This document shows positions 12,800 through 29,655 of a DNA stretch of 42,288 nt, piece by piece. A program made the translations under genes and the position numbers. The notes beneath the pieces were generated by a model that was not told the origin of the DNA, searched no databases, and was given only the letters and a program-made list of their open reading frames with translations. This DNA is from Deltaproteobacteria bacterium (GTDB lineage Bacteria; Myxococcota_A; UBA796; SXON01): contig CANKOI010000031.1 of the NCBI GenBank assembly GCA_947484175.1, forward strand, positions 1-42,288, in the 5' to 3' direction. How positions within the stretch are numbered: position 1 is the first letter of the stretch; each line of letters begins with the position of its first letter.

Positions 12800-14030
12800 T
12801 CAGAACTCCTCAGGCGAGAAGATCGCCACGCCGCCGCCGGCGTGCCCGCCGATGCCGTCGCCGCCTGCCAGCACCTCGGAGAGGCCGTCGCCGTTGAGGT
12901 CTACCATCCCTACAGAGGCGCCGATCCCCGCAGAGGCGGCGGCATCCGTGAACACGGCCGTGGCCGTGGTGTCATCGTAGTTTCCGCGGGCGATGGGCCC
13001 CGAGTACAGCCAGGCCCCGCCGATCCCGGCGGCGGCAGGCGCGCCGATCAACAAGTCGGGCTCGCCGTCCTGGTCTACGTCTCCACCCGTGGCCACGCTG
13101 TAGCCGAACTGGCCGTCGCTGTAGGTGCCGGTAAACTTCACGTCGGCGTCGCTGGTGTCCTCAGCCCCTCGGATCGGGCCGAAGTGCAGGTAGGCGTAGC
13201 CGTCCTCGTCGTCGGGGGCGCCGATTGCGAGGTCGGGCGTTCCATCCCCATCCAGATCGGACCGGGCATCCATGGCCCAGCCGAAGCCACCGTCCGTCGT
13301 GGCGATGTAGCCGGCGGCGTCGGTGAAATCGAGGCTGGCGCCGGGGATGCCGCCGTCGAACTGGTACACGTCGTCGGAGTCCCACTGGCCCGAAAAGATC
13401 TCTTCCACGCCGTCGCCATCCACGTCGCCGGCCGCCACCCGCACGCCGAGGCTCACGTCGATGTATACGTCGCTCACGGTGTAGTCGGCCGCGTAGCCGG
13501 GTGTGATCGGTCCGAACTCGATGTAGATCTCGCCGGACTGATTGCTCCAGACGAGGTCCTGTTGGGTGTCGTCGTTCCAATCGGTGGAGATGACGGAGAA
13601 GCCGCCGTAATCGCTGGAGCTGTTGCCGGCGCGAGCGGCCCAGGCGTCGGCCTCGGTCTGTTCGCGCTCGAAGGGGGCCAGGAAAACATAGGCGTAGCCG
13701 CGATTGCTGCCGGCGCGGTCCGAAAAGGGGGAAGCGGCCACGAGGTCGGAGAGGCCGTCGCCATCGAGGTCGGCCGCGCTCCAGATTTCGTAGGTCATCT
13801 CGTCTTCGACTTCGCCGTGTACCCCGTAGAGGCCATGGTCGTCGGCGGTCATCTCGCCGTCGGGTAGCCCCGCGAGCAGGGTGGCAGCGCCCGAGCCAGT
13901 GCCGGACGGGGCAGCCAGCGAAGAAACCCAGGCCTCGAGCACGCCGTCGCCATCGCTGTCGCCGCCGGTGCTGATTTTCCAACCCCCGGCATCGCCCGCG
14001 CTCGATGAGTACACCAGTGCGTTGGCATCG
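12800..14030 (-). repeat. FG-GAP-like propeller, module B (about 7 repeats)
   Basis: Seven units can be counted, such as AADLDGDGLSDLVAASP, ARSDLDGDGTPDLAIGAP and VDLNGDGLSEVLAGG. They fit one seven-bladed propeller and finish at the stop 12800-12802. Confidence 0.6.
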
Positions 14031-17000
14031 CTGCTGAGCAGCTGGCCGTCGAACGCGCACCCGCGAGCGGAGCCGTCGCAGTTCTGATCGATCCGATCGC
14101 CGCATACCTCGCGCTCGCCGGGGTTGATTCCGCTGTTCGCGTCGTTGCAGTCCCCGTCCTTTTCGGCCTCGCCGGGAGCGGTGTCGCACCCTACCCGCGC
14201 GCGCGAGCCGGAGCCGTAGTGGTCGCTGTCCTTGTCGTTGAACAGCGGAATCGCGCCCTCGGGGGGTTCCGCCTCTTCGTCGTCGGCCGCGCCGTTGCAG
14301 TCTTCGTCCATGTCGCGGGAGTCACACACTTCGACCTCGCCGGGATTCACGTCCGCGTCGTCGTCGTCGCAGTCGCCGTCCAGCTCGGCAAAGCCGTCGC
14401 CCCCATCGCAACGGGCCACCGCGTCGCCGGTGCCGTAGCCGTCGCCGTCGTCGTCGGCGTACCACGGCGCGGTGCCGCTGAGGTCGTCGTCTTCGTCTTC
14501 AGACAGCCCGTCGCAGTCCTCGTCCACGTTGCTGGCGTCGCACACTTCGGGGTTGCCGGGAAAACGATCCGGGTCGCTGTCGTCGCAATCGTCGTCGTAC
14601 TCGACGAACCCATCCTTGGGCAGGCAGCGGTCGTCCACATCGTCAGCGTCGCCGTGGCCGTCGCCGTCCTGATCGCGGAACCACAGGGGCGGGTCGACGA
14701 GGTCGTCGTCGTCGTCGTCGAGTTTCCCGTCGCAGTCGTTGTCCGTCTTGCTGCCGTCGCAGCTCTCGCCCGCCCCCGGGTGCACCTTCGGAGCGCCGTC
14801 GTCGCAGTCCACGTCGGCAGTGAAGCCGTCGGCGTCGAGGTCGAACATGAAGCCCAAGGGGCCGGTGCAGCCGAGAACGGAGGCTACGGAGACGGCGCCT
14901 GCGGTGGCCACCGCGGCTGAGCGCGCGCGGCGTCGGATCGCGGCCAGCACCGCTAGCCCGGCCAGCCACGAGGGCGCGGCGCCCGGCGTGCTGCACGAGC
15001 AGCCCTCGAGGAGGTCGGCGAGGGGATCGGGGGGGGCGGTGTCCTCCCCGCTGCCCTCGCAGCCGCCGAGCACGGCGGTGTCGGTGTCGTCGCAGTCGTC
15101 GCCGAAGGTCACGCCGTCGCCATCCTGGTCGTCGTCGTTGCCGTCACAGTCCTGATCGATGCCGTCGTACCAGACCTCGCTCGCGCCGGTGTTCACGGTC
15201 GCGTCGGTGTCGTCGCAGTCGTCGCCGCCGTCGCCGGCGCGCCGCTCGCCGTCCCCATCGGCGTCGAATTCCGCCGCGGGGTCGCAGCCGTCCACTTCGC
15301 CGTCGTACGGGTCGTCCGGCGCGCCGAGGTACACGTCGTCGTCGGCGTCGTCGCAGTCGGTGCCGCCCCTCGTCGCGGCGTCTTGGCCGTCGCCGTCCAT
15401 GTCGTTGTTGGCGGTGCCATCGCAGTCGCCGTCGATGCCATCGTAGGCGTAGTCGGTGCCCCCGGGGAACGCCTCAGGGTCGGTGTCGTCGCAGTCGTCG
15501 CCGCCGTAGGCATCGCTGTCGTGGCCGTCGCCATCGTCGTCGTAGTCGGAGTCGCCCTTGCAGTCGCCGTCCACGCCGTCGTAGGGAACCTCGGGCGCGT
15601 ACGGGTGTACGTCGTCGCGCGTGTCGTCGCAGTCTCGGGCGTCGTCCACGTAGCCGGCGTCGGGCTCGCAGGTCCACGAGGTGTTGGCGGCGTCGCCGTA
15701 GCCGTCGTCATCGAGGTCGGCGTACCAGGTGAGGCCGTCGCCGATCGCGGCGTCGGTGTCGTCGCAATCGTCGGCCGCGGCGACGTAGCCACTGGGTGCC
15801 GCACAATCGAGTACGGAGGCGCTGCCGCCGAAGCCGTCGCCGTCGGCGTCGACATACCAGGCGGTGGTTGCGATGCCGTCGTCAACAAGGCTGTCGCAGT
15901 CGTCGTCGATGTCGTTGCAGCTCTCGCTGGTTCCGGGCGAACGAGAGGCATCGCTGTCTGCGCAGTCGCCGCCAGAGGTTGAGTACCCGGACGGCAGGGC
16001 GCATGCCGCGAGGGTGCTGGCCGTGAGTCCGTAGCCGTCGCCGTCTGCGTCGAGGTAGTAGGTGGTGGTCACGCCCTCGTCGGTGGCGCCGTCGCAGTCG
16101 TCGTCGTCGCTGTTGCAGGTCTCCGTAGCGCCGGGCTTGACGGCGGCGGAGGTGTCGTCGCAGTCGGTGCTGGTGGCCGCGTAGCCGGAGGGGAGGGAGC
16201 AGGCGTCGGACGACGACGAGGCATCGCCGTAGCCGTCGCCATCGGCGTCCAGGTAGTAGGTCGTGGTCACGCCTTCGTCGGTGGCGCCGTCGCAATCGTC
16301 GTCGATGGCGTTGCACGTTTCCAGCACGCCGGGGTGCACCTTGCCCTCGCTGTCGTCGCAGTCGGTGGAGCTCGCCGAGTAGGCCACAGGTGCGGAGCAC
16401 GCCACAGTTGTCACGCTCAGGTCGCCGTAGCCGTCGCCGTCGGTGTCGGCGTACCAGGTGGGCGCGTCGATCGCGGAGGCCTCGTCGGTGGTGCCGTCGC
16501 AGTCGTCGTCGGTGCCGTCGCAGGTCTCTGAGGCGCCGGGGTAGGCGGTGGCGTCGTCGTCGTCGCAGTCCGTGGCGTTCGCGGTCCACCCCGAGCCGAG
16601 CGAGCAGAACAGGTTGCTGGACGAGGAGTTGCCGTAGCCATCGCCGTCGGTGTCGGCGTAGTAGCGTGTGCCGCCGGTGGCGCCCGCCTCGTCGGTGGAG
16701 CCGTCGCAGTCGTCGTCGACGGCGTTGCAGGTCTCGACCTCGCCCGGGTTGAGGTTCGCGTCGCCGTCGTCGCAGTCGTCGTCGGTGGCCGAGTAGCCCG
16801 CAGGGGAAGCGCAGCTCGCGGTGCCGGTGCCCGCGCCGTAGCCATCGCCGTCGGCGTCGGGGTACCAAGTGGGGATCGTCTCGTCTACGTGGCCGTCGCA
16901 GTCGTTGTCGATGCCGTCGCAGAGCTCGGCCTCGCCGGGGCTCAGATCGGGGTCTGCGTCGTCGCAGTCCTCCCACGCGTAGTAGCCGTCGCCGTCGCCG

Positions 17001-19948
17001 TCTTCGAGGGTGTAGACGTAGGCGCGACCGGCGTTGTAGGCGGTCACGAGCAGCTCGTCGCGGCCATCGGCATCGAGGTCGCCCGCGCCGCCCACCTCGC
17101 CGCCGTACCCCGTGCCGGGCACGTCGCTGGTCAGGGTGAACTCGGGGCTGGAACCAAGGCCGCTCCCGCTGCCCATGAAGACCAGCGCGCCGCCATCGCC
17201 GTCGTAGGTCACGTCGAAGCTGCTGCTGCCGAGCGCGAAGTCGTCGAAGCCGTCGTCGTCGAAGTCGCCGCCCTTCCGGATGGGCGAGCCGATCGCCGCG
17301 GAAGCCACTCCCCCATCGAGGGTCCAGTCGGCGGTGGTGGAGGGCCCGGTGGCGCTTCCGTAGAAGGCCATCACGCGGCCTTCGTTGGTGAGCGTGGCTG
17401 AATAGCCGGGGCAGCCCACGGCCACATCGTCGTAGCCGTCGAAGTCGACGTCTCCGAGCCCTGCCAGCCCGTAGCCGCACTGGGCGCTGCGAACCCCCCC
17501 GAGCAGCGTCCAGTCCGGCGTGGAGGTGAGGCCCCCGGTGGCGCCGAAGTACAGGAAGGCGGCGCCCTCTCCCGCGAGGGTGCCTTCGTAGTTGTAGGCG
17601 CCCGCGAGGAGCTCATCGAAGCCGTCGCCGTCGACGTCGCCGGCTTTGGCCACGGTGGTGCCGAAATAGGCGCTGTCTACGTTGGACTCGAGCGTGATCG
17701 TGGCGGTGGTGGAGGGCCCGCTCGAACGACCGTGGTGCACGACCACCGCGCCTTCGTTGGTCTGCCCGTTGTCGTACTGGCTGGCGCCGGCCGCCACGTC
17801 GTCGTAGCCATCGCCGTTGATGTCGCCGAGGATCGCCACGGAGCCGCCGAGGTACATGCTCGACGTGGCGCCCGCGAGCGTGGTGGAGCCGGTGGTTGCT
17901 GGCCCCGAGGCCGAGCCGTAGTACACATAGGCAGCGCCGCGGTAGGAGCTGTACGAGGTGTAGCCGATGACCAGGTCGTCGTAGCCGTCGCCGTTGGTGT
18001 CGCCGCCCGCGTCGAGCGCCGCGCCGTAGGAGCTGCTGCCGGTCAACGTGTACTGCACGGTGGTGTCGACGCCGTCGGCGGTGCCGCCGAACCAGCTCAC
18101 GATGCCGGACGACGACGAGCCGAGCGCGAGGTCGTCGAAGCCGTCGGCGTCGAAGTCGGCTCCACCTGCGGCGAGCTCGGCGCCGAAGTAGGTGACCGTG
18201 GAGGCCAGGGTGGCGACGGAGGGTTCGTTTCGCGTGGCACCGTCGGGACCGCCGGCGAGAAGCCAGGAGCGGGCTACCGCCCCGCCGACCACGAGGTCTA
18301 CGTAGCCGTCGGCGTCCACGTCTCCGCCATCGAGGGTGAAGCCGAAGTACGCAGAGTTCTGCGGCCCGTCCACGGTGGAGCTCGCGGTGGAGGCGAGGCC
18401 ACTCGTGGAACCGGAGAAGACGCGGACCGTGCCGGAGAGCCGGCCGACTCGCGCCTCGTAGTAGGCGCCTACCGCGAGGTCGTCGTAGCCGTCGCCGTCG
18501 ATGTCGCCAGGGCCCGCGAGCGCCGAGCCGAGGTAGGCGCTGGCGGTGTTGGGCTCGAAGCTCCACGCGGAGGAGGTGCCGAGGCCGGAGGCGGAGCCGT
18601 GGTAGACCCACACCTTTCCTTCACTGGTCTCGGTGTTGTCCCACGCGGTCGCGCTGATCGCGAGGTCGTCGTAGCCGTCGCCGTTTACGTCGCCCGCGCC
18701 GCTCACGGCGCTGCCGAGACCGGCCGAGCTCTGGTCGCTGTCGGCCGACCAGGAGGCGGTGGCGCTCGGGCCGGCTGCCGCGCCGTGCCACACGAAGACC
18801 ACTCCTTCGTCGGTCTGGCCGTCGTCGTAGGCGGCCGCGGCGGCGGCGATGTCCGCGTAGCCGTCGCCGTTCACGTCGCCCGCGCCTGCAACCGCGCTGC
18901 CCAGCGCGGCCGACGTCTGGTTGCACTCGAGCCGGGTGATGGTGCTGCCGAGACCCGTGCTGCTGCCCAACCAGTAGTAGACCGCACCCTCGTTGGTGGA
19001 GCCGTTGTCGTAGTCGGGGGCCCCCGCGATCACGTCGTCGTAGCCATCGCCGTTGAGGTCGCCGGCGCCGGCCACGGCGGTGCCGAGGTCGGCCGAGGAC
19101 TGGCCGCCCGCGGCGCGGAAGTTGTAGGAGCTGCCGGGGCCGGAGGCGCTGCCGTGGAACACGTAGATCGCGCCTTCGCCGGAGTAGGCGCTGGTGTACC
19201 CGGCGGCCCCCGCCACGAAGTCATCGTAGCCATCGTTGTTCACGTCTCCGGCCGCGGCGACCGCGCCGCCCAAAGCGGCCGACGAGGAGCCCGGGTCGTA
19301 TTTCCAGTCGGCGGTGACGCTCGGCCCGTCTGCCGAACCGTAGTACAGGAAGATGCCGCCTTCGTTGGTGGTGCCGTTGTCGTAGTAGGGCACGCCAAGC
19401 AGCACATCGTCGTAGCCGTCGCCGTTCACATCGCCGACCACGGCTACGTCATCGACCACATCGCCGGTGCTCACCAGCGTGTACCAGGCCGGTGCCAAGG
19501 TGGGGTCGACCGTGATCGGGAAGCGGGCGTTGGCCACGTTCACCACGATGCGTAGGCCGTCGCCGAGCGGCTCGAAGTGCGAGGCCAGCTCGACTCCGCC
19601 TGCGTCGGTCACGTACAGGCCGTCGTAGCGCACCTTCCGGCCGTCGGGCAGCACGAAGCGGGCGTTGCGGGCGTCGGCAACGACGCTGGCGCCCTCCACG
19701 GCGATGTCGATGAACAGCTCGTCGCCTGTGCCGGCTGGCTCATCCAGCTCGAAGCCGTGCTCGTAGCTTCCGTCGCGGGCACGCAGGAACTCGACCACGC
19801 CCGGCGAACGCAGTTCCGCCCTCGCGATGCAGGCGCCGTCGATGCCCGGCGTGTCGCCGGGCGTGCAACGACCCAGCGTTGCGGAACGGTCCGGCAGCGG
19901 CTCGGCAGGCTCGTTCACGCGGCCCACCCGTTTGGTGACGAGCCGCAC
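12800..19948 (-). CDS. Giant FG-GAP/MopE protein with internal MYXO-CTERM tail fused to a second lipoprotein-like module
   Basis: This open frame of 2382 codons begins at GTG 19948, but probably lacks its true N-terminus (see 19952-20176). Module A has about 14 FG-GAP repeats (GDVNGDGYDD and similar), as in two seven-bladed propellers. About 12 MopE-type repeats follow (DCDD then NDCDG), then a MYXO-CTERM tail: Cys1650/Cys1652, helix PSWLAGLAVLAAI, RRRAR. The frame does not stop. Module B begins with the hydrophobic stretch SAAVATAGAVSVASVLGC (Cys1694) like a lipobox, then 4 MopE repeats, then about 7 FG-GAP repeats. FG-GAP propellers bind calcium and extracellular ligands. MYXO-CTERM tails are removed by myxosortase. 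Both modules are probably surface proteins. The two modules may be separate genes fused by stop-codon loss. Confidence 0.85.
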   Translation of the reverse strand: MRLVTKRVGRVNEPAEPLPDRSATLGRCTPGDTPGIDGACIARAELRSPGVVEFLRARDGSYEHGFELDEPAGTGDELFIDIAVEGASVVADARNARFVLPDGRKVRYDGLYVTDAGGVELASHFEPLGDGLRIVVNVANARFPITVDPTLAPAWYTLVSTGDVVDDVAVVGDVNGDGYDDVLLGVPYYDNGTTNEGGIFLYYGSADGPSVTADWKYDPGSSSAALGGAVAAAGDVNNDGYDDFVAGAAGYTSAYSGEGAIYVFHGSASGPGSSYNFRAAGGQSSADLGTAVAGAGDLNGDGYDDVIAGAPDYDNGSTNEGAVYYWLGSSTGLGSTITRLECNQTSAALGSAVAGAGDVNGDGYADIAAAAAAYDDGQTDEGVVFVWHGAAAGPSATASWSADSDQSSAGLGSAVSGAGDVNGDGYDDLAISATAWDNTETSEGKVWVYHGSASGLGTSSAWSFEPNTASAYLGSALAGPGDIDGDGYDDLAVGAYYEARVGRLSGTVRVFSGSTSGLASTASSTVDGPQNSAYFGFTLDGGDVDADGYVDLVVGGAVARSWLLAGGPDGATRNEPSVATLASTVTYFGAELAAGGADFDADGFDDLALGSSSSGIVSWFGGTADGVDTTVQYTLTGSSSYGAALDAGGDTNGDGYDDLVIGYTSYSSYRGAAYVYYGSASGPATTGSTTLAGATSSMYLGGSVAILGDINGDGYDDVAAGASQYDNGQTNEGAVVVHHGRSSGPSTTATITLESNVDSAYFGTTVAKAGDVDGDGFDELLAGAYNYEGTLAGEGAAFLYFGATGGLTSTPDWTLLGGVRSAQCGYGLAGLGDVDFDGYDDVAVGCPGYSATLTNEGRVMAFYGSATGPSTTADWTLDGGVASAAIGSPIRKGGDFDDDGFDDFALGSSSFDVTYDGDGGALVFMGSGSGLGSSPEFTLTSDVPGTGYGGEVGGAGDLDADGRDELLVTAYNAGRAYVYTLEDGDGDGYYAWEDCDDADPDLSPGEAELCDGIDNDCDGHVDETIPTWYPDADGDGYGAGTGTASCASPAGYSATDDDCDDGDANLNPGEVETCNAVDDDCDGSTDEAGATGGTRYYADTDGDGYGNSSSSNLFCSLGSGWTANATDCDDDDATAYPGASETCDGTDDDCDGTTDEASAIDAPTWYADTDGDGYGDLSVTTVACSAPVAYSASSTDCDDSEGKVHPGVLETCNAIDDDCDGATDEGVTTTYYLDADGDGYGDASSSSDACSLPSGYAATSTDCDDTSAAVKPGATETCNSDDDDCDGATDEGVTTTYYLDADGDGYGLTASTLAACALPSGYSTSGGDCADSDASRSPGTSESCNDIDDDCDSLVDDGIATTAWYVDADGDGFGGSASVLDCAAPSGYVAAADDCDDTDAAIGDGLTWYADLDDDGYGDAANTSWTCEPDAGYVDDARDCDDTRDDVHPYAPEVPYDGVDGDCKGDSDYDDDGDGHDSDAYGGDDCDDTDPEAFPGGTDYAYDGIDGDCDGTANNDMDGDGQDAATRGGTDCDDADDDVYLGAPDDPYDGEVDGCDPAAEFDADGDGERRAGDGGDDCDDTDATVNTGASEVWYDGIDQDCDGNDDDQDGDGVTFGDDCDDTDTAVLGGCEGSGEDTAPPDPLADLLEGCSCSTPGAAPSWLAGLAVLAAIRRRARSAAVATAGAVSVASVLGCTGPLGFMFDLDADGFTADVDCDDGAPKVHPGAGESCDGSKTDNDCDGKLDDDDDDLVDPPLWFRDQDGDGHGDADDVDDRCLPKDGFVEYDDDCDDSDPDRFPGNPEVCDASNVDEDCDGLSEDEDDDLSGTAPWYADDDGDGYGTGDAVARCDGGDGFAELDGDCDDDDADVNPGEVEVCDSRDMDEDCNGAADDEEAEPPEGAIPLFNDKDSDHYGSGSRARVGCDTAPGEAEKDGDCNDANSGINPGEREVCGDRIDQNCDGSARGCAFDGQLLSSDANALVYSSSAGDAGGWKISTGGDSDGDGVLEAWVSSLAAPSGTGSGAATLLAGLPDGEMTADDHGLYGVHGEVEDEMTYEIWSAADLDGDGLSDLVAASPFSDRAGSNRGYAYVFLAPFEREQTEADAWAARAGNSSSDYGGFSVISTDWNDDTQQDLVWSNQSGEIYIEFGPITPGYAADYTVSDVYIDVSLGVRVAAGDVDGDGVEEIFSGQWDSDDVYQFDGGIPGASLDFTDAAGYIATTDGGFGWAMDARSDLDGDGTPDLAIGAPDDEDGYAYLHFGPIRGAEDTSDADVKFTGTYSDGQFGYSVATGGDVDQDGEPDLLIGAPAAAGIGGAWLYSGPIARGNYDDTTATAVFTDAAASAGIGASVGMVDLNGDGLSEVLAGGDGIGGHAGGGVAIFSPEEF
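14030..14830 (-). repeat. MopE-type repeat array, module B (4 repeats)
   Basis: Four units carry DCDD or DCND, then EVCD-type Cys and EDCDG or QNCDG. They begin just after the lipobox-like Cys (codon 14869-14867) and end near FDGQLLS. Confidence 0.65.
15020..17010 (-). repeat. MopE-type metal-binding repeat array, module A (about 12 repeats)
   Basis: Each unit has DCDD, a Pro-Gly segment, then CDG-x2-DDCDG and DADGDGYG. Six full-length units with the second Cys pair are followed by shorter ones. The seventh lacks the CDG-DDCDG half. The Asp-rich loops look like calcium-binding loops. DNA periodicity follows from the coding repeats. Confidence 0.7.
17015..19455 (-). repeat. FG-GAP repeat array, module A (about 14 repeats)
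   Basis: In translation, the motif GD-[VLI]-[ND]-x-DG-[YF]-DD and its flank, ending in strands like YYGSASG, recurs with roughly 55-60-residue spacing. I count 14, two propellers' worth. Later copies are degenerate, such as GGADFDADGF and GAGDLDADGRDE. Confidence 0.7.
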
Positions 19949-19951
19949 GCC

Positions 19952-20176
19952 TCAGGGGGCCGACCCGTCTTCGCCGATCAACTCCACGCCGCCAGACTCG
20001 ACCGTCAGCGACAGCGTTCCCGCCGCGGTTTCGGACACGAGGCCCATCGCAGACGGGCTGAACGCACGATTCGAGGCCGCCACCCGAGCTTGGACCTCGG
20101 CCAGCCACGGGTCGGCAGCCGACGGCAGCTCGGAAGGTGCGGAAACGCAGGCGAGCGCGACGAAAAGGGACAGCAT
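19952..20176 (-). CDS. Signal peptide and N-terminal fragment of the giant FG-GAP protein, cut by TGA
   Basis: This fragment of 74 residues starts at ATG 20176 with MLSLFVALACVSA (lipobox-like Cys10 or signal peptidase I site), and contains WLAEVQARVAAS and SLTVESGGVEL. It stops at TGA 19954-19952. The next frame-matched GTG is 19948, only one codon later, and the following sequence continues in the same reading frame. The N-terminal layout (alpha stretch, then beta strands leading into RVGRVN) is what I recall as one continuous domain in Myxococcota FG-GAP proteins. I therefore think this is the missing signal-peptide end of the downstream gene. A nonsense mutation, an assembly error or recoding are all possible. 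Confidence 0.6.
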   Translation of the reverse strand: MLSLFVALACVSAPSELPSAADPWLAEVQARVAASNRAFSPSAMGLVSETAAGTLSLTVESGGVELIGEDGSAP

Positions 20177-25562: not shown

Positions 25563-26285
25563 ATGTTCGATTCCATCACTACCGCCCGGCGCTCCGACGA
25601 CGGCGGCCGCCGCCTTTCGTCCTTCGCCCTCAGCGCCACGTTGCTGGGCGGGGCGCTCGCCGTCGCCGCCCTCGCGGAGCCGCCTCCGCGCCTCGCGGAG
25701 ATCATGCTGCCGCCTATGCCTGCGATGGTGGAGGTGTTTCTTCCGGAGCCCGCTGGTGGTCCCCCGGAGCCTGGGCGCGGGGGCGCGGGCAGCTCCCGAC
25801 CCCAGCCGGCTCCCGCCGCGGCCCGGGAGCCGCCAGAGGTCGCGCCGAGCGAAGAACCCCCTCCCGATGTGCCGGCGAGTGTCCTCCCCACCACGGAGGG
25901 CGGCGGCAGCGCGGCGCCGACCGAAGGGCCGCCGGGGGGGCCGGGGGAACCGCCCGGAGGGCCTTCCGGGGGTGGTGGCTCGGGCCTGGGTGACGGTGAG
26001 ATGCTCTTCGTCCACAACACCGATCTCGCCGTGCTCACGCGCGTGGAGCCACGCTTCCCGGAGGCCGCCCGTTCGTTCGGCCGACGCGAGGAGCGCTGCG
26101 TCGTGCGAGTGGAGGTCGACATCCGGGGCGCGCCGGCCTCGGTGACGCCGCGGTCGTGCCCGGTGGTGTTTCAGCAGGCGGCCCTCGACGCGGCGAAGCA
26201 GTGGCGCTGGTCGCCGTACCTCGCGGCGGGGCGGCCGGTATCCGCTACGTTCGACCTCCAGTTCGTGTTCCGGCTGCGGGATTAG
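25563..26285 (+). CDS. TonB-like energy-transducer protein
   Basis: This 240-residue protein starts at ATG 25563, 116 bp after the barrel gene. One membrane helix lies near residues 18-38. A long Pro/Gly-rich linker (about 41-140) follows, as expected for spanning the periplasm. The C-terminal region from about 150 (RVEPRFPEAARSFGRREERCVVRVEVD to LQFVFRL) resembles the TonB C-terminal domain. No exbB or exbD is present nearby. TonB would couple the proton gradient to outer-membrane receptors. Its 3' end overlaps the convergent MopE gene's end by 4 bp. Confidence 0.75.
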   Translation: MFDSITTARRSDDGGRRLSSFALSATLLGGALAVAALAEPPPRLAEIMLPPMPAMVEVFLPEPAGGPPEPGRGGAGSSRPQPAPAAAREPPEVAPSEEPPPDVPASVLPTTEGGGSAAPTEGPPGGPGEPPGGPSGGGGSGLGDGEMLFVHNTDLAVLTRVEPRFPEAARSFGRREERCVVRVEVDIRGAPASVTPRSCPVVFQQAALDAAKQWRWSPYLAAGRPVSATFDLQFVFRLRD

Positions 26286-28228
26286 CCAAGCTTCCCGCCG
26301 CGGCCCCCCCGCCGGCGCCGCCGTACGGCGGCTACGCCGGCAGCGAGGAGGAGGGCGCCGGGGAAGGCGGACGCCGACCCGCATCCGCAGGAGTCGGGCG
26401 CCTTGTTCGTGGTGGCGTCGTCTACCTGCTCCTCGTTGCACCCCTCGTCGATGGCGGCGTCACAGTTGTCGTCTACGTCGTTGCAGACCTCGATCTGCGC
26501 CGGGTTCACCCACGGCTCGCTGTCGTCGCAATCGCCGTCTGCCGGCGAATAGCCGTCTGCGTCCTCGTCGAAGTTCTCGGTGCCTTCGTCTACCAAGCCG
26601 TCGCAATCGTCGTCCACGCCGTTCGCCACCTCGGGGGTGCCGGGATGCCGAGCGGCGTCCGCGTCGTCACAGTCGCCGGCCGACTCGGTGACCCCGTCCT
26701 GGTCGTCGTCGAAGTGGTCGCCGCCTTCGTCTACGATGCCGTCGCAGTCATCGTCGGAGCCGTTTTCGTACTCGGGCGCGCCGGCATGCACGAAGGCGTC
26801 GGTGTCGTCGCAATCGCCCTCCACTTCCGATTCGCCATCGCCGTCGTCGTCGTAGTTGGCGGTGCCCTCGTCCACGGTGCCGTCGCAGTCGTTGTCGACA
26901 CCGTCGGGCAGCTCCGGGTTGCCGGGAAATACGGCGGCATCGGCGTCGTTGCAGTCGCCGCCTGCGAGCGACACGCCGTCGCCATCCCCATCGCCACCCC
27001 CGTCGTCCACGACCCCGTCACAATCGTCGTCGATCCCGTTGCCCATCACCTCGCTGGTAGCGGGGTGGATGGCCGCGTCGCCATCGTGGCAGTCGCCGTC
27101 GTCTTCGGTGTAGCCGTCGCCGTCGTCGTCGCCGCAGCCTGTCCCTTCGTCGGTCTGGCCGTCGCAGTCCTGGTCCACCCCATCGCACAGTTCGGCCTCT
27201 CCGGGATGAATGTCGGCGAGGGCGTCGTCGCAGTCGCCGCCGTCTTCGGTCCAGCCGTCGCCGTCGTCGTCGTGCAGCTCGGTCGTTTCGTCCACGGTGC
27301 CGTCGCAGTCCTCGTCCACGCCGTCGCCCGTTTCGGTGGCACCGGGGCGCACGGAAGCGTCGGTGTCGTCGCAATCGGCCCCGCCGACCACGTCGGCATC
27401 GTAGCTGTCGCCGTCTACGTCGGTGAGGTCGGCGCCGTCGCAGTCCTGATCGATGCCGTCGTAGGGCACCTCGGTGGCACCGGGGCTGATCGCCGGGTCG
27501 GTGTCGTCGCAGTCGTCGCCGCCGCAGGCGCCGGAGGTGGAGTCGTACCCGTCGCCGTCGTCGTCGCAGCGGCCGTAGATGGTGTAGTAGATCTCGTTCG
27601 CGATCAACTCCACGATGTCCCGGTTTCCGTCCGCGTCCTGGTCGCCGCCGTAGTCGTCGAAGAGGAGGCCGTTGTACAGCGTCGCGCCCCCGTTTGATTC
27701 GCAGATCGCCCCTCGAGTGGTGCTGACGGCGGACGCATACCCGCCGGGGAGGGTGGCGGAGCCGCTTGCCCGCAGCTCGTCGCCGTCATCCGACCAGCCC
27801 ACGTCGGCGCGAGTGGTGATGTTGGGGATGGCGTAGGGGGTGGTGAAGATGGGGTGGGTCGTGTCCCACTGGTAGATGGATCCCGGCGTGGAGAGCGTGC
27901 TCGTGACGGTGCAGTCGAAGGCCGCCTGCAGGGTGGCGCTGGTGTCAAAGTCCCAGTACCCCATCACGACCAGCCCGCCGCCTGCGATGTGGTTCGAGAT
28001 CGCCGTCTCCCAGGAGCCCGTGGGGAGCGTGCTGGGCATGTCGATCACGAGGAGCTCGTACGTTCCCGAATTGACGCTGCCGGTGAAGCTTGAGGAGCTC
28101 GAAAGGGTGTAGGCGTAGCCGAGCGTAGTGAGGGCCGTGCGGGCGTAGCTGCTGCGCGCGGATTCCTGGTAGAGCAGGATGTCGGTCGCGTGGGCGGGAG
28201 CGGCGAGTGTGAGCAGGAAGGGGATCAC
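26282..28228 (-). CDS. Secreted Rossmann-like/MopE repeat protein with MYXO-CTERM tail
   Basis: This 648-residue protein starts at GTG 28228, overlapping the upstream stop by 4 bp (GTGA). The start IPFLLTLAAPAHA is a short signal peptide. Residues about 15-220 form an alpha/beta domain (DILLYQESARSSYARTALTTLGY, then HIAGGGLVVMGYW) that looks like a glutamine-amidotransferase-like/ThuA-type fold. Eight MopE repeats follow, and the C-terminus is SCGCGSASAFPGALLLAAG then RRRRR, a clear MYXO-CTERM sorting tail. The protein is probably exported, anchored and released at the surface. No activity can be assigned. Confidence 0.8.
   Translation of the reverse strand: MIPFLLTLAAPAHATDILLYQESARSSYARTALTTLGYAYTLSSSSSFTGSVNSGTYELLVIDMPSTLPTGSWETAISNHIAGGGLVVMGYWDFDTSATLQAAFDCTVTSTLSTPGSIYQWDTTHPIFTTPYAIPNITTRADVGWSDDGDELRASGSATLPGGYASAVSTTRGAICESNGGATLYNGLLFDDYGGDQDADGNRDIVELIANEIYYTIYGRCDDDGDGYDSTSGACGGDDCDDTDPAISPGATEVPYDGIDQDCDGADLTDVDGDSYDADVVGGADCDDTDASVRPGATETGDGVDEDCDGTVDETTELHDDDGDGWTEDGGDCDDALADIHPGEAELCDGVDQDCDGQTDEGTGCGDDDGDGYTEDDGDCHDGDAAIHPATSEVMGNGIDDDCDGVVDDGGGDGDGDGVSLAGGDCNDADAAVFPGNPELPDGVDNDCDGTVDEGTANYDDDGDGESEVEGDCDDTDAFVHAGAPEYENGSDDDCDGIVDEGGDHFDDDQDGVTESAGDCDDADAARHPGTPEVANGVDDDCDGLVDEGTENFDEDADGYSPADGDCDDSEPWVNPAQIEVCNDVDDNCDAAIDEGCNEEQVDDATTNKAPDSCGCGSASAFPGALLLAAGVAAVRRRRRGGRGGKLG
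26430..27570 (-). repeat. MopE-type repeat array (about 8 repeats)
   Basis: Eight DCDD/DDCDG units such as DCDDTDPAISPG, DCDDALADIHPG and DCDDSEPWVNPA precede the MYXO-CTERM tail. The middle units lack the extra Cys found in the giant protein's repeats. The DNA repetition is codon repetition. Confidence 0.7.
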
Positions 28229-29655
28229 TGGGCGCTCCCATCGCAGTCGTTGTCGACGCCGTCGCCGACCGTTTCGAGCTCGTGGGGGCCGATGTCGTCG
28301 TTGGCGTCGTTGCAGTCGCCGCCGTTCTCCGTGTAGCCGTCGCTGTCGTCGTCGTAGGCGGCCGTCCCTTCGTCTACGGTGCCGTCACAGTCGTCGTCCA
28401 CGCCGTTGGCCCTTTCGGTGCCCGCCGGGCTCGTGGTGCTGGCGCTGTCGTCACAGTCGCCCGCGGCCTCGTCGTACCCGTCGCCGTCGTCGTCTCCGGC
28501 GCTCGTGCCTTCGTCTACGCTCCCGTCGCAGTCGTTGTCCACCCCGTCGGCTGTCTCCTCGCTACCGGGAGACGTTGAGCCAGCCGCGTCGTCGCAGTCA
28601 CCGCCGTTCTCCGTAAACCCGTCTCCGTCGTCGTCGTAGCCGTCCGTGCCGTCGTCCACCGCGCCGTCACAATCATCGTCCACCCCGTCCAAGGTCTCGG
28701 CAGCGTCCGGGGAGACCGCCCCGTCGCCGTCGTTGCAGTCGCCGCCGTTCTCCGAGTAGCCGTCGCCGTCGTCGTCCCCCGCCTCCGTGTCTTCGTCCGT
28801 CGTGCCGTCGCAGTCGTTGTCCTGCCCATCGGCCACCTCGTTCTCGCCGGGAAATACGGTGTCGTCGGCATCGTTGCAGTCTCCCGCGCATGCGGCCACG
28901 CCGTCGCCGTCCACGTCCACTGCGCCTTCCCCGAGACACGCGTTGGCTGCGAGCGGAACCACGACCAACGGGAGGTCGGGGTCGTCGGTGGTCAGCTTCA
29001 GGGCGCCGGTCTGCCCCTCGGAGTCCACCGGGCCGAAGCCCACGCTCAGTTGGACAGTTGCGCCTGCTTCCACCTCCGCCGGCGTGGTGAGCGCGACAAG
29101 GTAGAAGCCCGCATCACCGGACACTTGTGCGTCGGTGATCGTAGCGGAGACGGAGCCGAGCGACTGCACACTCACGGTGGCGAACACATCGGCCCCGAGC
29201 GGCACGAGGCCGAAGTCCACGGCCGAGGGGTACACCACGAGGGAGGGTGCGCCGGCGAGGCCGCGAAGGTGCACCACGACTGCATCCTCGCCGGTGTTCG
29301 CGTCGCTCTGCACGGTGAGGTCGGCTTCGAAAGCTCCCACGTCTTCGGGACGGAACCCGATCGTCACGTCCACCGACTCGCCCTTGGGGAGCTGCGCCCC
29401 CTCTGCGGTGGTGTCGATGACGAACGCCTCCGCGTCGTTCCCGGCCACCGTGAGCGACACGACTGTGAGCGAGCCCACCCCGACGCTGCTGACCGAGAGC
29501 GTGCCCGTGGACTCGCCGCCCACGGCCACGATGCCGAAGTCGAGCAATTCTGGATTCACGGCGAGCTTGGTGGCGGCGGCCGAGAGCTGCGTGTCGATGC
29601 ATCCGGCGGTGAGGACGAGTAGCAGCGCGGGGGCGAGGGCGAAGGGGACACGCAT
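28225..29655 (-). CDS. Lipoprotein with ASH-like domains and MopE repeats
   Basis: This 476-residue protein starts at ATG 29655. The N-terminus MRVPFALAPALLLVLTAGC has a canonical lipobox (TAGC, Cys19). Residues about 35-245 contain two immunoglobulin-like ASH/choice-of-anchor-D repeats: PELLDFGIVAVGGESTGTLSV and PSAVDFGLVPLGADVFATVSV. Each has the DFG-x-V-x-x-G pattern of that family. Five MopE repeats end the chain at DNDCDGSAQ, with no MYXO-CTERM tail. It is probably a surface lipoprotein. Its stop overlaps the start of the next gene, so the two should be co-translated. Confidence 0.8.
   Translation of the reverse strand: MRVPFALAPALLLVLTAGCIDTQLSAAATKLAVNPELLDFGIVAVGGESTGTLSVSSVGVGSLTVVSLTVAGNDAEAFVIDTTAEGAQLPKGESVDVTIGFRPEDVGAFEADLTVQSDANTGEDAVVVHLRGLAGAPSLVVYPSAVDFGLVPLGADVFATVSVQSLGSVSATITDAQVSGDAGFYLVALTTPAEVEAGATVQLSVGFGPVDSEGQTGALKLTTDDPDLPLVVVPLAANACLGEGAVDVDGDGVAACAGDCNDADDTVFPGENEVADGQDNDCDGTTDEDTEAGDDDGDGYSENGGDCNDGDGAVSPDAAETLDGVDDDCDGAVDDGTDGYDDDGDGFTENGGDCDDAAGSTSPGSEETADGVDNDCDGSVDEGTSAGDDDGDGYDEAAGDCDDSASTTSPAGTERANGVDDDCDGTVDEGTAAYDDDSDGYTENGGDCNDANDDIGPHELETVGDGVDNDCDGSAQ
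28235..28925 (-). repeat. MopE-type repeat array (5 repeats)
   Basis: Five DCND/DCDD units alternate with DNDCDG or DDDCDG and DDDGDGY linkers. They lie at the very end of the lipoprotein and are separated from the next gene's array by its N-terminal domain. Confidence 0.7.

Follow-up and report, generated by a model that had tools for sequence, protein, structure and literature searches.

An open reading frame on the minus strand of the window (the whole 42,288-nucleotide stretch of DNA that was analysed, contig C31 of a 4.37 Mb assembly in 167 contigs) joins two MopE/FG-GAP modules, A and B, through an internal MYXO-CTERM tail that runs straight into a lipobox-type signal. The modules are fused in frame, the fusion and both motifs are conserved, and the genome encodes enzymes of the myxosortase and of the signal peptidase II class. 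Sequence comparisons make it probable that the frame is a genuine fusion precursor, which these enzymes would cut into two lipid-anchored surface proteins; the topology, both cuts, both lipidations and the surface location are what we infer from the motifs.

The junction reads EGCSCSTPGAAPSWLAGLAVLAAIRRRAR-SAAVATAGAVSVASVLGC-TGPLGF and holds no stop (Table 1). Cys1650, encoded by TGC at 15001-14999, is followed by Cys1652, a helix and an arginine cluster, RRRAR, which ends at 14921, and residues S1677-C1694 (14920-14867) come directly after it. A preliminary description of this DNA had reported this passage from a MYXO-CTERM tail into a lipobox-type signal and a second MopE/FG-GAP module, and its coordinates and residues were borne out. 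A Pfam search of the ORF protein placed MopE and FG-GAP repeats on either side of the junction and found no OmpA domain. Structure prediction of the junction gave two low-confidence helices (pLDDT 42.6). A frameshift at the junction was rejected, since neither of the alternative frames encodes a plausible tail or signal there.

Table 1. Features of the fused frame in the window, and loci with a collapsed junction.
Feature	Coordinates	Strand	Basis or remark
Probable natural N-terminus of module A (MLSLFVALAC..., signal-like)	19952..20176	minus	ATG at 20176-20174; by-eye alignment with the open G006 N-terminus
Whole open frame, modules A and B together	12800..19948	minus	2382 codons and stop TGA at 12800-12802
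Module A: FG-GAP repeats, then MopE repeats	15008..19948	minus	Pfam FG-GAP, Cu-binding_MopE; boundaries approximate
Internal MYXO-CTERM: CSC motif, helix 1, RRRAR	14921..15004	minus	TIGR03382 above cut-off
Second hydrophobic stretch with lipobox-type VLGC (Cys1694), lipoprotein-type signal for module B	14867..14920	minus	sequence; kept in G006 and G004
Internal GTG, proposed start of module B, not supported	14948..14950	minus	pairing and conservation checks
Module B: MopE repeats, then FG-GAP repeats	12803..14866	minus	sequence, Pfam
CotH-type fusions with collapsed junction in three congeners	L215 850-4290; L216 560-4003; L217 2840-6289		

The internal tail has the cysteine motif, helix and arginine cluster expected of MYXO-CTERM (CSC, helix 1 and RRRAR), and these are common to the congeners G006 and G004. 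It exceeded the TIGR03382 (GC_trans_RRR) cut-off of 15.85 with 18.5 bits on a 167-aa junction fragment and scored 22 bits in a genome search. TIGR03901 (MYXO-CTERM) remained below its cut-off of 20, scoring 19.4 bits for the 167-aa fragment and 16.6 for the entire protein, which counts against a cut precursor. The tail is also not C-terminal, as more than 700 residues follow it. A positive stretch, a hydrophobic stretch and a lipobox cysteine are present in RRRAR-SAAVATAGAVSVASVLGC, as judged by a rule of our own rather than by a signal-peptide predictor, and the lipobox reads LGC, LGC and SGC in the three species. This signal lies inside the protein, some 1690 residues after the ORF begins, and has no conserved start codon of its own.

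When the junction region was searched against 58 genomes, the window's own included, G006 (64% identity) and G004 (59%) aligned over positions 1-233 of 234 with the junction open. The genus counts ten other genomes, these two among them; the other matches listed cover part of the query or hold a stop. In the full alignment, CxC, RRR.R and the lipobox cysteine are invariant in all three species, and linker length changes by whole codons. Codon differences in the linker (14-19 codons per pair) are most frequent at third positions and least frequent at second positions. The preliminary description had offered simple stop loss at the TCA codon next to RRRAR (14920-14918, one base from TGA) as an alternative, and had held that homologues found solely as two separate genes would speak against a fusion. 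Both congeners likewise have no stop at this place, and a stop-loss accident is unlikely because three separate occurrences would be needed; the fused forms in G006 and G004 also answer the second point.

A family search of 22 genomes yielded, among the matches listed, no unfused orthologue of the exact A-B pair of the window. Beyond G006, these matches were A-like N-termini (at most 40% identity) and stand-alone B homologues. The latter, found in G007, G002, G003 and G004 (33-35% identity), open like ordinary lipoproteins: Met and a positive residue come first, then a hydrophobic stretch and a Cys. A scan of named genomes gave at least 79 loci, and the one fused record among those listed, CAISIK010000079.1 (L136, Lake Erken MAG), is the named record of G004. 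A regex search over 227 sequences gave 41 tails, seven of which continue for at least 16 residues: the three orthologues, C22 (cut by the locus end; described below), a false match in L172 and two short tails. We note that the public MAG records L164, L172, L175, L183, L184 and L199 bear the names Klebsiella pneumoniae or Bifidobacterium breve in their titles; their MopE-type proteins are unlike those genera, and the record names look wrong.

The window allele may be broken, because an in-frame TGA at 19952-19954 (minus) near the N-terminus separates a signal-like start from the long ORF. The matching stretch of G006 is open, and the natural N-terminus of module A is probably upstream of 19948. 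In G004, this half of A has both a frame change and a TAA. The interruptions in the window allele and in G004 count against the precursor reading. The lesions in the A halves of these two alleles may be assembly faults or real decay.

Other tails in this genome also run on. With TIGR03382 at E values of up to 10, 54 candidate tails were found, of which a few are doubtful. In 48 cases a stop follows within 28 residues, and the tail in C57, which has no Cys motif, runs 67 residues. The remaining five run on for more than 400 residues, each straight into a second signal-peptide-like stretch, with a lipobox in C31 (the window), C22 and C144 and a signal-peptidase-I-like site in C5 and C53. A signal-peptide-like continuation was seen in 5/5 run-on tails versus 1/49 others read in frame past their own stop. 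This is more than expected by chance, but the comparison is a guide and not a clean test because the run-ons had been seen before the rule was drawn up. The second module of C5 contains an OmpA domain (Pfam, 79.5 bits), and that of C53 is related to it (BLAST, 26% over 234 aa); no OmpA domain was found in the available piece of C53. In L259 117-4664 (contig C5 of G000), a TSP3-repeat module, a MYXO-CTERM-like tail and an OmpA-domain module stand in a single ORF, resembling MXAN_5598 of Myxococcus xanthus. The C144 junction retains an internal ATG with strong Shine-Dalgarno pairing (-10.2), an apparent half-way state. The second half of the C144 fusion (L266 962-4522, G000) likewise ends in a MYXO-CTERM-like tail, and its first half is cut by the contig end; the arrangement resembles a tandem duplication whose copies have been joined in frame. 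A family search for C144 found no second fused copy: 4 of 22 genomes matched, and the matches other than C144 itself were confined to short parts.

The C22 frame leads from a MopE protein, through its MYXO-CTERM-like tail and a lipobox, into a choice-of-anchor-D/MopE protein. The same pair is fused in four genomes of three genera (G000, G001, G019 and G016). A stop splits the A half of the G016 copy, which again counts against precursor cleavage. In G013, a similar pair consists of two genes with an ATGA overlap: A ends in RRRKTL and a stop, and the start of the B gene in the overlap has strong Shine-Dalgarno pairing (-9.5). Several other genomes examined for this family have the B-type lipoprotein gene first and the MYXO-CTERM gene after it, overlapping or near. 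In a tree of 20 B domains, three of the fused copies form a clade (100/99), and C22 falls outside it on weaker support. Repeated fusion inside this family is not demonstrated, because a single origin of the four fused copies was not rejected (AU p 0.08). The window itself contains, at 26282-28228 and 28225-29655 (minus), a choice-of-anchor-D/MopE gene with a lipoprotein-like start and a 4-base overlap with the following MopE gene, whose MYXO-CTERM-like tail (15.2 bits) is under the cut-off; the gene order is the reverse of that in the fused pairs.

A profile of eight fused junctions (A3) was searched against 378 genomes with a completeness of 85% or more. Beyond seven seed rows, at least 12 stop-free matches extend to position 42 or further of the 54 in the model; at least 14 further matches reaching as far hold a stop and were left out of the reading. 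Ten of the 12 listed lead from a MYXO-CTERM tail into a lipobox-type cysteine and then 179-1005 more residues (G327, G195, G349, G217, G287, G348, G012, G139, G320 and G113; seven families, the lipobox of G349 being irregular). In G322 the tail is followed by a signal-peptidase-I-like site and then by a relative of the OmpA-type module, and the match in G386 simply ends. All seven tail-only matches of a control set end within 21 residues. BLAST of the halves showed that G217 and G348 carry the same fusion, as do G012 and G010, and linked the A halves of G113 and G287, whose B halves did not match at E 1e-6. The diversity of the B modules points to several independent tail-lipobox fusions in the phylum. 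Because the profile was built from fusions, the search shows their occurrence and not their frequency. The CotH-type fusions of G010, G008 and G007 have a collapsed junction, in which a CGC motif, one hydrophobic stretch and an SAC lipobox are merged without an Arg cluster; G012, a relative of this fusion, has the full hairpin. The collapsed junction falls outside the hairpin model described below, which does not explain it, and counts against the reading as a cut precursor.

As for processing enzymes, this genome encodes one protein that scores above the NF040914 myxosortase-core cut-off (111.7 vs 100) and contains EExxxR and HxxxN. The specific cut-offs of MrtX, MrtP and MrtC were not reached in this genome. 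MrtX-like matches were found in 17/17 genomes searched and the MrtX-specific cut-off was reached in 0/17, which is a further point against cleavage of the precursor. LspA (PF01252) was found in 16 of these 17 genomes, G322 being the one where it was not found. This genome has two signal peptidase II (LspA) genes, on contigs C56 and C68, and two copies are present in 10/17 genomes searched.

If the frame encodes a cut precursor, module A would be exported via its own N-terminal signal, and helix 1 of the internal MYXO-CTERM would halt in the inner membrane and leave the Arg cluster in the cytoplasm. The same cluster would be the positive n-region of the lipoprotein signal peptide (helix 2), where the chain would turn back and module B be exported. 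As the Arg cluster is usable both as the cytoplasmic end of a helix and as an n-region, both modules would end outside. Myxosortase would then cut beside the MYXO-CTERM cysteine and signal peptidase II before Cys1694, which would yield two lipid-anchored surface proteins at 1:1 and a discarded hairpin of ~40 residues. We favor this reading because the congeners keep an open junction with CxC, RRR.R and the lipobox Cys invariant, because stand-alone B homologues start as lipoproteins, and because run-ons enter signal peptides, a second family occurs fused and split, and ten lipobox fusions are present in the phylum. It is also favored by the myxosortase-core protein and LspA encoded in this genome, and by the reported cleavage of MYXO-CTERM by MrtX in M. 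xanthus and in E. coli (Guo, Haft, Wall, mBio 2025, PMC11980579). The idea of a polyprotein, raised in the preliminary description, is thus strengthened by a fusion kept in three species, similar fusions in other pairs and one such pair that also exists as separate genes; its cleavage and lipidation are predictions.

The same topology would result from an uncut single chain, whose two helices would form a membrane hairpin holding A and B at the outer face of the inner membrane. Such a chain makes cleavage unnecessary, and the cuts are themselves predicted from motifs; but three species retain both cleavage motifs down to the very cysteines, the motifs turn up again in unrelated fusions, and the stand-alone B homologues are lipoprotein-like, so we regard an uncut chain as unlikely. 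Cleavage at one site is quite improbable: signal peptidase II would free B with A keeping its tail, or myxosortase would free A with helix 2 holding B. In the passages of Guo et al. (PMC11980579) that we consulted, the N-terminal part alone is proposed as processed in MXAN_5598, whereas both signals of the window type are equally well kept.

A separate start of module B at GTG 14950, additional to the fusion, appears highly doubtful. This internal codon, put forward in the preliminary description, is present, G006 has GTG at the aligned place, and the C144 fusion retains a well-paired ATG. However, the anti-SD pairing of GTG 14950 is weak (-3.6; the background has its median at -2.1 and its best tenth at -5.9), and G004 has GTC at the aligned position, the sole in-frame ATG/GTG/TTG in its junction being a GTG before helix 1. 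An assembly or sequencing error that deleted a stop between two genes would fit the single base between TCA and TGA, the division of the genome into 167 contigs and the other lesions upstream. Such an error is scarcely credible given the open junction in two further species and the recurrent run-ons into signal peptides.

Extended beyond the window, the cut-precursor reading would mean that Myxococcota repeatedly fuse MYXO-CTERM and lipoprotein gene pairs into polyproteins, from which two unrelated intramembrane proteases would excise an Arg-centred hairpin to give, in fixed ratio, two surface lipoproteins, one carrying its lipid at the C-terminus and the other at the N-terminus. We give this broader hypothesis an even chance. 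If true, it would describe a bacterial polyprotein processed by two different membrane proteases. The fused pairs are natural test substrates for whether myxosortase needs a free C-terminus and whether an internal signal supports lipoprotein processing. They also hint at how genes may become fused, with ATGA-overlapping neighbours turning into a single ORF.

Rare internal MYXO-CTERM motifs have been reported, and MXAN_5598 has been proposed as a fusion with its N-terminal part processed, in the passages of PMC11980579 consulted. The window ORF resembles MXAN_5598, as described in those passages, in that an internal MYXO-CTERM is followed in frame by a second exported module; the second module of MXAN_5598 is an outer-membrane barrel with an OmpA domain, whereas that of the window follows a lipobox and is a MopE/FG-GAP protein. 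The lipobox form was not found in a search of the myxosortase/MYXO-CTERM literature (titles, and passages of PMC11980579). A literature search for comparable internal lipoprotein signals gave nothing relevant by title. Judged on this limited access to the literature, the lipobox variant looks new, as does its repeated occurrence. Ordinary MYXO-CTERM proteins (TIGR03382/TIGR03901, e.g. TraA) have a cysteine motif, helix and Arg cluster as in the window, where the motif is internal. Bacterial lipoproteins of the Lgt/LspA pathway likewise share the positive stretch, hydrophobic stretch and lipobox-type Cys with the window signal, which is again internal. In the FbcH cytochrome b/c1 polyprotein of Bradyrhizobium, a membrane protein and a second exported protein are cut at an internal signal peptide by signal peptidase I, without a sorting tag. 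Unlike FbcH, the window ORF has two lipid-linked sorting signals back to back.
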